DNA of 49,278 nucleotides, from positions 1 to 49,278 of the forward strand of contig JAFUJQ010000004.1 of the NCBI GenBank assembly GCA_017473705.1, given 5' to 3'. Every line of letters starts with the position of its first letter. Position 1 is the first letter of the stretch. Under the pieces are notes generated by a model. The model searched no databases, was not told where the DNA came from, and saw only the letters and a list, made by a program, of their open reading frames with translations. This document shows positions 36,669-40,298 of this stretch, piece by piece. The stretch comes from Bacteroidales bacterium. GTDB lineage: Bacteria; Bacteroidota; Bacteroidia; Bacteroidales; UBA932. The position numbers were made by a program, and so were the translations under genes.

Positions 36669-37808
36669 ATGTTACCCTGTCAAGACAACTATGCAACAAC
36701 CTTCGATTCCTATCCTGCCATGCTCAGTTACCACGAAACCATGAGCAAAGAAACTACCTGGCGCCGCTGCAAAGTCAGTGAGCTGCACATTGAACCTCTG
36801 GACACCGGTTCTCCGTTGTTCAGTAAGCCCGCGGACTTTGCCGAAGGAATCAGTGAGGAGGCTGTGATCGACACAGCAGCCAATCTGGGTCTGGCACTTC
36901 GCGTGGGTGACGATCTGTATCCCATTCGGACGACGGCCTATAAGACTCTGCTGGACCGCGCAAAGATCGGTGGTACTGCATTGCCCAAGCTGAAGCGGAA
37001 GGACCTTGCGGACGTTCTGAACGCCTGTCTGGCCCTGTATTCTTCGGAGGCGTTGCTGCTTGTCCGCGATGAGAAAGTGTCTGCTGCCCATTCCGGTGAC
37101 CTGAAGGACTATTCTGTGCTTCCGATGGATGAACTTCTCCATGCTCTGGAGAAGAACATGGAGGCCAGATTCCCCGGTTATCAGTTTGAAAGCGGATACT
37201 CAGACCACGCCTTTACAAGCGGCTGCTGGACATTCCCTGCACAGAAAGATGATCTGCTCGGAACCTACAGCAAGATGCTGGCTTCCAAGGGAAAGAGTAC
37301 CATGGCCGCAAAGTTGGTACCTGGTATCCGGTTCATGACTTCCGATACCGGTATCGCATCTGCGAAGGTATCTGCAATGCTGATGGGCACCCAGCACCCG
37401 ATCCACATTGGTGGTTGTATTTCCGTGGATCACCGTCTGCAGAAGAAGGTATCCGACTTCGAGAAGGAGCTGGACCAGCTGTTTGCTCAGTTCTGTGATT
37501 CTGTTGGCAAGCTTCAGACCCTTCTGGAGATCGAACTGGATTACCCGGTCAATGCCATGACCCGCATCTGCAAGAAGCTTTCTCTTCCTAAGAAAGAAGC
37601 ACTGGAAGCTATTGCGATGTTTGAAATGGCATATGGCGGCGGTACCGCCACAGCTCATGACGTATTCATGGCGCTGCAAGAGATCCCGTACCTGATGAAG
37701 ATCCATAAGATGCCCGAGGCCAAGATGCTGGTCGTGGAAGAAAACATGGCAAGAGCCCTGTCCCTCAAGTGGAGTGAGTATGATCTTGCGAAGGCGGTGA
37801 ACTACTGA
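36669..37808 (+). CDS. Hypothetical mobile-element protein, first gene of the recombination operon
   Basis: The 379-residue soluble protein begins MLPCQDNYATTFDSYPAMLS. Length and course faintly recall DUF932-type phage/plasmid proteins encoded near exonuclease and annealing genes, but I see no decisive motif. There are several helical segments, including VSDFEKELDQLFAQFCDSVG, and a Gly-rich AYGGGTATAHDVF. ATG 36669 follows AAAGGAGA. Its stop codon overlaps the start of the yqaJ-like gene by one base (TGATG). It is expressed behind leader B, so it belongs to the recombination regulon. Confidence 0.6.
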   Translation: MLPCQDNYATTFDSYPAMLSYHETMSKETTWRRCKVSELHIEPLDTGSPLFSKPADFAEGISEEAVIDTAANLGLALRVGDDLYPIRTTAYKTLLDRAKIGGTALPKLKRKDLADVLNACLALYSSEALLLVRDEKVSAAHSGDLKDYSVLPMDELLHALEKNMEARFPGYQFESGYSDHAFTSGCWTFPAQKDDLLGTYSKMLASKGKSTMAAKLVPGIRFMTSDTGIASAKVSAMLMGTQHPIHIGGCISVDHRLQKKVSDFEKELDQLFAQFCDSVGKLQTLLEIELDYPVNAMTRICKKLSLPKKEALEAIAMFEMAYGGGTATAHDVFMALQEIPYLMKIHKMPEAKMLVVEENMARALSLKWSEYDLAKAVNY

Positions 37809-38267
37809 TGGCAGCTCCCATTATGCTTTGCGACACTGCCGGTATGTCCAATGACCGCTGGCTGGAATGCCGAATGCATGGCCCCAAAGGAGATATCCCT
37901 TATACCGTAGGCGGTAGTGATGTGGCAGCCATATTTGGTGTGTCACCCTGGACGACTCCGCTGGAACTGTGGCTCATCAAGAAGGGGAGAATGAAGCCTC
38001 CCAAGAAGATGAACCAGGATCAGCTGGCTATGGGTCATATGCTGGAACCGATCGCCGCAGAATGGTATGCCCGAAAGTCCGGCAACCACGTGTATCAGGA
38101 CACAGGACTCTATCAGCACGCGGATCACCCTTACGCACTGGCCAATTTTGACCGCAGATACACCCGCGCATCAGATGGTGGCGATGGAATTTTGGAGTGC
38201 AAATCCTGCACTTACCACAACGCGGACCATTGGGCTGACGGAGCGATTCCACTTTACTATGATTTTC
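37808..38267 (+). CDS. YqaJ-type recombinase/exonuclease, exon 1
   Basis: This is the 5' exon of a gene split by a group II intron. It codes for residues 1-153 and the first base of codon 154. The YqaJ nuclease core is visible: GGSDVAAIFGVSPWTTPLEL near 38-57, MGHMLEPIAAEW near 77-88, and ILECKSCTY near 130-138, with the E-x-K metal site. Joining to exon 2 (39721-40298) gives 460 + 578 = 1038 bases, an exact multiple of three, and restores YYDFQLRFYLSV across the junction. Unspliced transcript would stop after RATRS. YqaJ proteins resect DNA for single-strand annealing. The start is ATG 37808, overlapping the previous stop codon. Confidence 0.88.
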
Positions 38268-38305
38268 GTGCGACACGTTCCTAACTGAAAAGGTTAGGCA
38301 CTAAG

Positions 38306-38337
38306 AAAAAAGGTGGACGCTCATCTGAGCCCCCACC
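38306..38337 (-). terminator. Terminator of the antisense XRE gene inside the intron
   Basis: On the reverse strand, GGTGG-GG-GCTC pairs with GAGC-GT-CCACC around a 4-base loop and is followed by six T (38306-38311). It lies 15 bases after the regulator stop codon. Confidence 0.8.
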
Positions 38338-38351
38338 CGTAAATTAGACAA

Positions 38352-38792
38352 CTATTTGCTGTCGGGTTCTTTATTCTTTGAGTAAAGGTATATGTTGACA
38401 CCAGAAAGAGTTGCATTCACAACAGCCAAAATAAAATAAACTGCTTCCAGCGTGCTTATTGCTTGAACTAACCAAGCAATGGCACCCAACAGAAAGGCAA
38501 CAGAGGCAAAGAGCGATAATGAACCATATTTCTTCCTTTTTGAATCGAGCGCAGTACACGCTTCCTTCAGACAAGGAATATCGTTGTCACTTGTATAGTC
38601 CTCGTTCAGCAAGTAATCGGCTGTTACATGGAATAACTTGCTCAACTGAAGAAGGTTGTTGGAATCAGGCAAAGCGGTCCCGTTTTCCCAACGGCTTATC
38701 GCCTGCCGAGAAACGTCCAGTCTTTCAGCTAAGTCTTCCTGTGACCACCCATTTGCTTTTCTTAGGTTTATTATTTTGTCTGACAGTTTCAT
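38352..38792 (-). CDS. XRE-family regulator with two membrane segments, inside the intron
   Basis: The 146-residue protein has a helix-turn-helix at residues 4-60 (IINLRKANGWSQEDLAERLD, VSRQAISRWENG). After a charged linker with one Cys (NDIPCLKEACTAL) come two hydrophobic helices (about 93-110, LFASVAFLLGAIAWLVQAI, and 115-135). This HTH-plus-membrane layout is common in Firmicutes. The start at ATG 38792 follows AGGAGG. An inverted repeat flanks its promoter region. It is transcribed against the intron and the host gene, so its mRNA is antisense to intron domain I and could affect folding. It is a regulator cassette captured by the intron. Confidence 0.88.
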   Translation of the reverse strand: MKLSDKIINLRKANGWSQEDLAERLDVSRQAISRWENGTALPDSNNLLQLSKLFHVTADYLLNEDYTSDNDIPCLKEACTALDSKRKKYGSLSLFASVAFLLGAIAWLVQAISTLEAVYFILAVVNATLSGVNIYLYSKNKEPDSK

Positions 38793-38825
38793 AATGAAAT
38801 CCTCCTATGGTATAGTGATTTCATT
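38793..38825 (-). promoter_or_regulatory. Inverted-repeat operator before the intron-borne XRE gene
   Basis: AATGAAATC (38793-38801) and GATTTCATT (38817-38825) are perfect complements around 15 bases that contain a TATACC -10-like hexamer and the ribosome-binding site. This suggests autoregulation by the XRE protein. Confidence 0.55.
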
Positions 38826-39576
38826 GTAATAAAATGCACTTACAAATTCCACCGCGTCAACTTTACATTTGCGCAACAAGACTTTACATCGCAAATAGAA
38901 TTGAATTTATGTTTTATTATACAGATATATGGCAAGATTGTAAAGCCATATGGTCTGGATTCTTAGGAGAACTGATTATCCGAGGAGTGGAATGACGGAG
39001 TAATGTCCCGAAACGCTCCCACTGATACTCCGGCTGGCTCTGCTCAAAAGGCAGATGTTCAGAAGCCCGGTGAAGTCGGCAGAGAGTAACCGTAGTGTGG
39101 CTTGCCACAACCGAAAGCAACCCAGAGGTGGGCTGTGTTACCTATATGTCGGGTGTCGATATCCCATGGTGAGAATGTTCATAGCGAACTGACGAACCCT
39201 TGAATGTACGTGTCTATACGTAGACTGCATAGAAATGTGCAGACACCTTTCTTGGTGGTGTGTGAGGTAAAGTAAAACTGGAATTTATGAAATACCTTAT
39301 GTCGTTATAGGCGACATCAAGCACACAGGCATATAGAGGGCACCCAAAGGATATCTATGATAGGATTATTGGAACGTGGAAAGCAGTAAAACGCAAATCT
39401 GCGGTGATGACGAAAAAAATAAGCATCTTTATTTACTGTGAGAGCGATGGCATGACCGATGAAGTTTCTGTAATGGAAACTGAGGAATAGCCATTAGTCA
39501 ATGGACTATATGACATCTATTTCTAAGTAACTACGGCTTCGAGTAAGACACAGAAAATCGACTCTGAAAGGAGGCG

Positions 39577-39633
39577 ATGCCCGTGACGGATACGAAGCAG
39601 AAACTTAGGAAAAAGATGGAGTACAGCCAATGA
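39577..39633 (+). pseudogene. Remnant of the intron-encoded reverse transcriptase/maturase
   Basis: An 18-codon frame with AAAGGAGGCG upstream encodes MPVTDTKQKLRKKMEYSQ and stops at TGA 39631-39633, immediately before domain V. The segment TKQKLRKKMEY is the start of LtrA-like intron proteins in this class, as I remember them. The remaining several hundred codons are missing, so the intron cannot make its own maturase. Confidence 0.7.
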
Positions 39634-39637
39634 TGGA

Positions 39638-39671
39638 ACGCCGTGTGAGGGGAAACTCTCACGCACGGTGT
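39638..39671 (+). other. Group II intron domain V
   Basis: The 34-nt helix ACGCCGTGTGAG / GGGAAACTCTCACG / CACGGTGT has the fixed domain V layout: lower stem, 2-base bulge, upper stem and a GNRA-type loop. The catalytic triad reads CGC in place of the more common AGC. Confidence 0.82.
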
Positions 39672-39720
39672 GGGCCGGGGGGAAATCTGGAGATAACATC
39701 AAATGATTACCTATCGGCAT

Positions 39721-40298
39721 AGCTTCGCTTCTATTTATCTGTCGGAGATGTCCAACATGGTGCCTATTCCTGCATCTGGGGCAATAACCCGGAAAACGAC
39801 CTGGCTATGCCGGAGATCGAACGGGATATGGCGATGGAGGATATGATCTTCGAACGGCTGGATGAGTGGATCTGGAGTCTGGAGAATGATAAACCGCCTA
39901 CGATGAGTGGCGTGTCGTCTTCTCTGGCGATGGAATCCCTGGCACGTATCTACGGCGCAAGCCAATCCGGCCTTCCGACCATTGAATTTCCCAGGAAATA
40001 CGAACGGTCGCTGCGGCAGATCGCAATGCTGCAAGGTAAGGTCAGAGACTGCGAAAGTGAAATTAAACTATATGAAAAGGAGATAGAGGCACATTCCGTG
40101 CGGATTGCGGAATTGATGAAGGAACATGAACACGGTATCTTAACGACTACCACCGATAAGCTCCTCATCGATTTCGTGACAAAAAGAACCAAGCGACCTG
40201 ACTCTAAAGCGCTGAAGACCAAGTATCCTACGGTCTATGCAGATGTTATCAAAGAGTCTCAGAGCCGCAAGGTGAAAGTCTCGGTACAACCGATTTGA
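39721..40298 (+). CDS. YqaJ-type recombinase/exonuclease, exon 2
   Basis: The 3' exon begins at AGCTTCGC, completing codon 154 (C|AG, Gln), and reads LRFYLSVGDVQHGAYSCIWG onward. The complete spliced protein has 345 residues. The C-terminal part is a helical region rich in Glu/Lys (KEIEAHSVRIAELMKEHEHG), ending VKVSVQPI. An internal ATG at 39807 is only a codon within the gene, with no ribosome-binding site. The following gene begins 15 bases after the stop codon. Confidence 0.85.

Follow-up and report, generated by a model that had tools for sequence, protein, structure and literature searches.

We consider it probable that a yqaJ gene in contig JAFUJQ010000004.1 of a Bacteroidales bacterium (assembly GCA_017473705.1) is split by a group II intron that is ORF-less (that is, without an open reading frame for a maturase), and that the loop of one of the intron's domain I hairpins, IB, is a cargo site for an antisense transcription unit encoding an XRE regulator. 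The stretch analysed, positions 1-49278, is referred to as the window and is 49,278 nucleotides (nt) long. This reading is carried by the anatomy of the intron, by an exact empty site in an uninterrupted homologue, by the unit's place between the arms of IB, and by three more introns that have unrelated backbones and hold other cargo in the same loop.

The intron and the gene it splits

The intron, its exons and the sites that define them are as follows; IBS1 and EBS1 are intron-binding site 1 and exon-binding site 1, and IEP stands for intron-encoded protein.

37808..38267, plus strand: yqaJ exon 1, 153 codons and 1 nt (PF09588 YqaJ, E 7.5e-27; homologue match 77.1%)
38261..38267, plus strand: IBS1, GATTTTC, pairing at 6/7 positions with EBS1
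38268..39720, plus strand: group II intron, 1453 nt, GTGCG...AT (RF02004 and RF00029 matches, empty-site homologue)
38967..39163, plus strand: domain I block, RF02004 (group-II-D1D4-5), complete model, 159.8 bits with a cut-off of 34.5
39280..39286, plus strand: EBS1, GGAATTT, pairing with IBS1
39577..39633, plus strand: maturase remnant ORF, MPVTDTKQKLRKKMEYSQ*, 18 codons, by eye like KLR..E(Y) at the starts of relatives' IEPs
39638..39671, plus strand: domain V, 34 nt (RF00029)
39672..39720, plus strand: domain VI and the intron 3' end (RF00029)
39721..40298, plus strand: yqaJ exon 2 (76.3% match to the homologue that also matches exon 1; alone without a Pfam match)

An Rfam search of the entire window at gathering thresholds returned just two matches, RF02004 and RF00029, the latter spanning domains V and VI (39636-39720, 63.2 bits with a cut-off of 40). 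The termini, GTGCG at 38268 and AT at 39720, have the form GUGYG and AY. A first-pass annotation, made from the letters alone, had placed an ORF-less group II intron in yqaJ with these ends and with domain V at 39638-39671, had claimed that its excision restores the frame exactly, and had named a covariance-model search and a comparison with uninterrupted homologues as checks. Both were run and both bear it out, the first by matching the domain I block and domains V-VI. Exon 1 (460 nt), which covers most of the YqaJ domain (PF09588, 94.9 bits with a cut-off of 22), and exon 2 (578 nt) join to give 1038 nt, the intron lying after the C of a CAG (Gln) codon. When the exon-1 and exon-2 proteins were used as separate queries, both found their best match in MT837153.1, a record of human faecal origin deposited as a phage, in which the two matches lie exactly 3 nt apart, corresponding to the codon that the intron splits; this homologue lacks an insertion there and reads ...YYEL-Q-LRFYLAV... 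at the junction. A search with an exact 21-base junction pattern found none.

Pairing between EBS1 and IBS1 was compared across the 76 introns in which EBS1 was located, and averages 6.09 of 7 positions versus 3.63 with shuffled partners and 2.5-3.4 in shifted registers. A score of 6, as in the window intron, is the commonest (38/76), with 7 in 26/76 and 3 or fewer in 2/76. Domain V agrees with the family pattern, although it was located by a regular expression that demands conserved positions and so cannot itself prove conservation. L012, an intron that bears a maturase and lies on a virus contig, matches the window intron at 74% over 633 columns, from the start of the domain I block to about 39573, and introns of this type are common in Clostridia. 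A chance or mis-called intron is ruled out by the Rfam matches, the empty-site homologue and the EBS1-IBS1 pairing.

An unspliced yqaJ mRNA would meet a stop 17 nt into the intron, after 158 codons, and full-length YqaJ therefore needs splicing. The first-pass annotation went further in proposing that the whole recombination operon is gated by splicing, which is overstated, since the ORFs downstream of yqaJ have their own starts and need not be affected.

An antisense unit within the IB hairpin

In related introns the first conserved hairpin is followed by a second one, of variable length, before the domain I block begins, and the name IB was assigned by this hairpin order in domain I. Because loop lengths vary, the IB stem was missing from an RNAalifold prediction on a MAFFT alignment, and the arms were then tested directly. 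Over 108 introns they form on average 6.58 bp versus 4.15 bp with shuffled arms, and they still pair in all three cargo introns tested (7, 8 and 5 bp). The parts of the window's IB hairpin and its contents are listed below.

38301..38307, plus strand: IB 5' arm, CTAAGAA (stem test, position)
38306..38338, minus strand: terminator-like hairpin (38338-38312) followed by TTTTTT (38311-38306)
38308..38959, minus strand: cargo segment in the IB loop, 652 nt (in relatives, 50-102 nt separate the 5' end from the domain I block)
38352..38792, minus strand: XRE regulator ORF, 146 amino acids, with a hydrophobic C-terminal part (HTH_3, E 6e-18, 65 bits with a cut-off of 23)
38793..38825, no strand assigned: dyad AATGAAATC/GATTTCATT, a possible operator adjoining the XRE start codon
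38793..38889, minus strand: leader, also conserved ahead of free-standing XRE genes (alignments to L279 and L281)
38944-38916, minus strand: promoter, TTTACA-17-TATAAT, 11/12 match
38960..38966, plus strand: IB 3' arm, TTCTTAG (stem test, position)

The cargo has a G+C content of 40%, with 46% in the rest of the intron and 48% in the window. An antisense XRE gene with promoter, operator and terminator had been assigned to domain I in the first pass, and the assignment stands, with its location now narrowed to the second domain I hairpin. On the minus strand the hairpin and T-run lie in a 51-nt stretch that folds at -20.1 kcal/mol, although an automated terminator scan listed no site. The predicted regulator mRNA, from about 38909 to 38306, takes in cargo and two bases of the IB arm, leaving the ribozyme core outside. 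An inverted repeat, ATATGGC-N11-GCCATAT, straddles the promoter (38927-38951) and is a candidate operator or RNA hairpin.

The leader aligns at 73% to the region upstream of one free-standing XRE gene (L279) and at 67% to another (L281), in both cases from the same base, with a third (L280) aligning from the ribosome-binding region only. This homology indicates that a whole regulatory unit was captured. Matches to the XRE protein at 1e-12 occur in 164/363 genomes of another order (that of G432), mostly to the HTH (helix-turn-helix) part, the best being 77% over residues 1-78; among 393 genomes of the host order at 1e-15 the window alone was found, and 14 pattern stretches in viral contigs yielded none that was confirmed. 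That the XRE gene normally belongs to domain I is ruled out, as 164/168 introns are without it.

Other introns with cargo in the same loop

Related introns were collected by sequence patterns, and the sample is not a census; its genome-contig part covers the matches listed. Among 108 distinct introns found by their 5'-end pattern, the window included, the distance from the 5' end to the domain I block is 50-102 nt in 105, the long ones being 276 nt (L071), 678 nt (L036) and 702 nt (the window); 11 of 150 5'-end hits were dropped here because the locus ends before an anchor. A fourth cargo intron, L292, with 619 nt, was found on a virus contig through the pattern that anchors the domain I block. 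All fetched loci together give 201 distinct anchors, 168 of them with a clear 5' end, of which 164 have a short loop and four carry cargo of about 220-650 nt; the other 33/201 anchors, which lack a clear 5' end, were left out. Two loci flagged as long, L237 and L253, proved short on inspection. L253 (G990:C72) has two domain I anchors 407 nt apart and is twintron-like, one intron starting inside domain I of the other.

In a set of 124 anchors, 107 were short and 17 flagged, two of these being L036 and L071 again, and none of the 10 inspected was new. RF02004 matches are present in 28/394 genomes of the order of G429 and 57/363 of that of G432, and the loci read, from the part of these matches that was fetched, contained no new cargo intron. 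A 14-base arm pattern hit at least 120 stretches, with no locus bearing a domain I anchor among the matches listed. Plasmid and phage collections also contain related introns, and loop lengths were measured for those fetched (L003-L007).

The other cargos differ from that of the window. In L071 it is an antisense 34-amino-acid membrane-type peptide with a TTGACA-17-TATACT promoter and a hairpin followed by a T-run, and in L292 an antisense lipoprotein-like ORF (Big_14, E 2e-12) with a TTTACA-17-TATAAT promoter and a hairpin leading into a T-rich tail (-20.2 kcal/mol). Both introns retain a reverse transcriptase (RT) frame with RVT_1, 633 codons long in L071 and 664 in L292. Inverted repeats seen by eye straddle these promoters too (CAGTTTA/TAAACTG in L071, AACGGAT/ATCCGTT in L292) and are candidate operators or RNA hairpins. 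The L071 intron, which runs downward from 6047 on the minus strand, also splits a yqaJ-type gene, at a different site; PF09588 is recognised in the downstream gene fragment from position 45 of the model onward (E 2.9e-18). L036 carries an antisense XRE gene and, on the plus strand, an 85-amino-acid ORF of no known family, located 385-675 nt after the intron start and ending at the IB 3' arm; the two genes diverge within one loop and could be a regulator-partner pair. With different genes at the same spot in three other introns, the IB loop may be a natural home for passenger genes.

The alternative that survives best, though we regard it as rather unlikely, is a single ancient cargo intron, in which the cassette was gained once, received a different gene later on and disappeared from most lineages, so that the site is not a recurrent target. 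The cassettes do have pieces in common. From the -10 element to the start codon, L292 and L071 have a leader in common ahead of unrelated cargos (0/300 shuffles score as high), the window and L292 share a promoter block (5/300), and L071 and L036 share the 14-mer GTAATCAGCTTAAA (18/300), present in only these two introns among 278 loci. A first tree, of 87 rows and with three cargo introns, placed these three in one 32-row group with support of 94/92, while needing three changes, two of them forced. The remaining three cargo pairs show no similarity beyond shuffles (77, 162 and 288 of 300), however, and the nearest relatives of each cargo intron have short loops. In a second tree of 85 introns, with five long-branch rows dropped, cargo in the four introns takes four changes, each one forced by starred branches, and holding the four together as one clade costs 170 log units and is rejected (approximately unbiased test, p-AU 1.3e-63). 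Cassette likeness could come from a common cassette pool or from one old cargo with losses, and the tree favours the pool.

More tentatively, introns of this type may be natural gene-carrying retroelements whose IB loop is an insulated bay that swaps antisense cassettes across unrelated backbones, moved by RT-bearing members through retrohoming (L292 and L071, for example). If so, recurrent antisense passengers in a domain I loop would be an additional kind of bacterial cargo-carrying retroelement, in which the antisense orientation allows expression of a cargo gene with no termination of the intron transcript. This would hint at how introns become useful to their hosts, and would offer a second cargo site for intron vectors.

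Splicing, maturase supply and precedents

If the IB loop is a cargo site, the cargo would loop out of a peripheral hairpin and leave the core able to fold, and its tolerance would be due to the peripheral position, to arms that still pair and to a terminator acting on the minus strand alone. In the plus-strand transcript the T-run reads as a run of A ahead of the hairpin, and transcription of yqaJ would not be stopped. The yqaJ pre-mRNA would be read through and then spliced, probably with a maturase acting in trans, and full-length YqaJ would come from the spliced mRNA only. The regulator would be made independently from the opposite strand, its mRNA ending within two bases of the IB arm, and it probably autoregulates by binding its own leader. 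The antisense orientation would thus have allowed a normal gene to live inside an intron.

Mobile group II retroelements have an intron-encoded RT/maturase, of which the window holds only the 18-codon remnant. ORF-less introns make up six of the 39 in which domain V was found, the window's included, and 888 of 13,041 bacterial introns according to part of PMC8919778; passages of PMC4424553 describe bacterial ORF-less introns as rare, with related IEPs present in the genome in nearly every case. That a maturase is supplied from elsewhere, as first proposed, is supported in part. The search for a full, maturase-bearing intron suggested at the same time found one RF02004 match in the window's own genome, a single metagenome-assembled genome (MAG) of 2.35 Mb in 171 contigs, and no GIIM domain, the MAG being 71% complete. 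Its one RVT_1 match (G000:C168) adjoins the template/variable repeat pair of a diversity-generating retroelement. The two repeats are about 128 nt long (at about 580-708 and 994-1122 of L002, with the RT ORF downstream) and differ at 17 positions, 14 of them at an A in the copy nearer the RT. This protein is ruled out as a trans maturase by these repeats and because no GIIM domain turned up in the genome. Splicing of the window intron may also be maturase-free.

Several points weigh against a working cargo intron. It rests on one incomplete MAG with no GIIM domain, and the intron is missing from 36 same-genus genomes and 24 others searched, one other genome giving only 33-nt matches. EBS1 and IBS1 have a single mismatch. 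Promoter-like sites are not enriched over shuffles (two in the region versus 1.3 expected), which makes the promoter match alone weak evidence. L036 is without a recognised domain V and without a clear terminator for its antisense XRE gene, and with its plus-strand ORF fits the scheme only in part. Splicing and the transcripts are predictions from sequence.

Some of these points would equally suit a decaying intron that lost its maturase, received a gene in domain I by chance and no longer splices, leaving yqaJ permanently interrupted. The reduced IEP, the lack of a GIIM domain in the bin, the EBS1-IBS1 mismatch and a long end branch for the window intron (0.36) lean that way. We nevertheless think decay unlikely, because the exon frame is exact, exon 2 is still open and 76% conserved, domain V fits the family pattern, the IB arms still pair, a 6/7 EBS1-IBS1 pairing is the commonest level, and introns that keep their RT have cargo in the same loop.

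It is quite improbable that the regulator or its mRNA is a switch controlling splicing or the recombination genes: the antisense overlap suggests it, and the conserved leader and dyad suggest a DNA-binding autoregulator, but the predicted mRNA neither overlaps the core nor extends across the 5' splice site, and other cargos include non-regulators (the 34-amino-acid membrane peptide and the lipoprotein). An earlier proposal that this mRNA alters intron folding is accordingly not supported, and an antisense switch on the ribozyme core is ruled out, the predicted mRNA ending inside the cargo.

The usual view of natural bacterial group II introns is of a ribozyme with a maturase, any gene being in domain IV, and in engineered targetrons, too, the cargo is usually in domain IV. 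The window intron is like other bacterial RF02004 introns, retroelement or ORF-less, in its RF02004 and RF00029 matches, GTGCG end, EBS1-IBS1 pairing and maturase-bearing relatives, and ORF-less members occur among them; unlike 164/168 of them it has a complete unrelated antisense gene in its second domain I hairpin loop. Like a targetron it holds passenger DNA within a group II intron, but the cargo is natural and in domain I. The nearest precedent found is the pair of fungal mitochondrial introns cox1-381 and cox1-926, in which, according to part of PMC13190283, LAGLIDADG ORFs lie in the domain IB loop; the bacterial family treated there has its ORF in domain IV. The window gene is likewise inside the IB hairpin, with IB named by order, but the fungal cargo is a homing endonuclease in organelles, whereas the window's is bacterial, antisense, provided with its own promoter and terminator, and a non-mobility gene encoding an HTH protein. 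Twintrons, as described in passages of PMC4424553, also involve insertion within a group II intron, but nothing in the window insert matches an intron, and it shows no hint of being spliced out; the passages there on bacterial variants name no antisense passenger gene, and no report of one in a bacterial group II intron was found with limited search terms in one library.

In the wider window, the left part contains integrase, alpha-amylase, CBM26 and transporter genes, and the region from 27.7 to 47 kb contains an AAA_5 and CobT/VWA pair, YqaJ, a RecD2 helicase, a primase and partition genes. The whole (1-49278) looks like a mobile element adjoining chromosomal genes.

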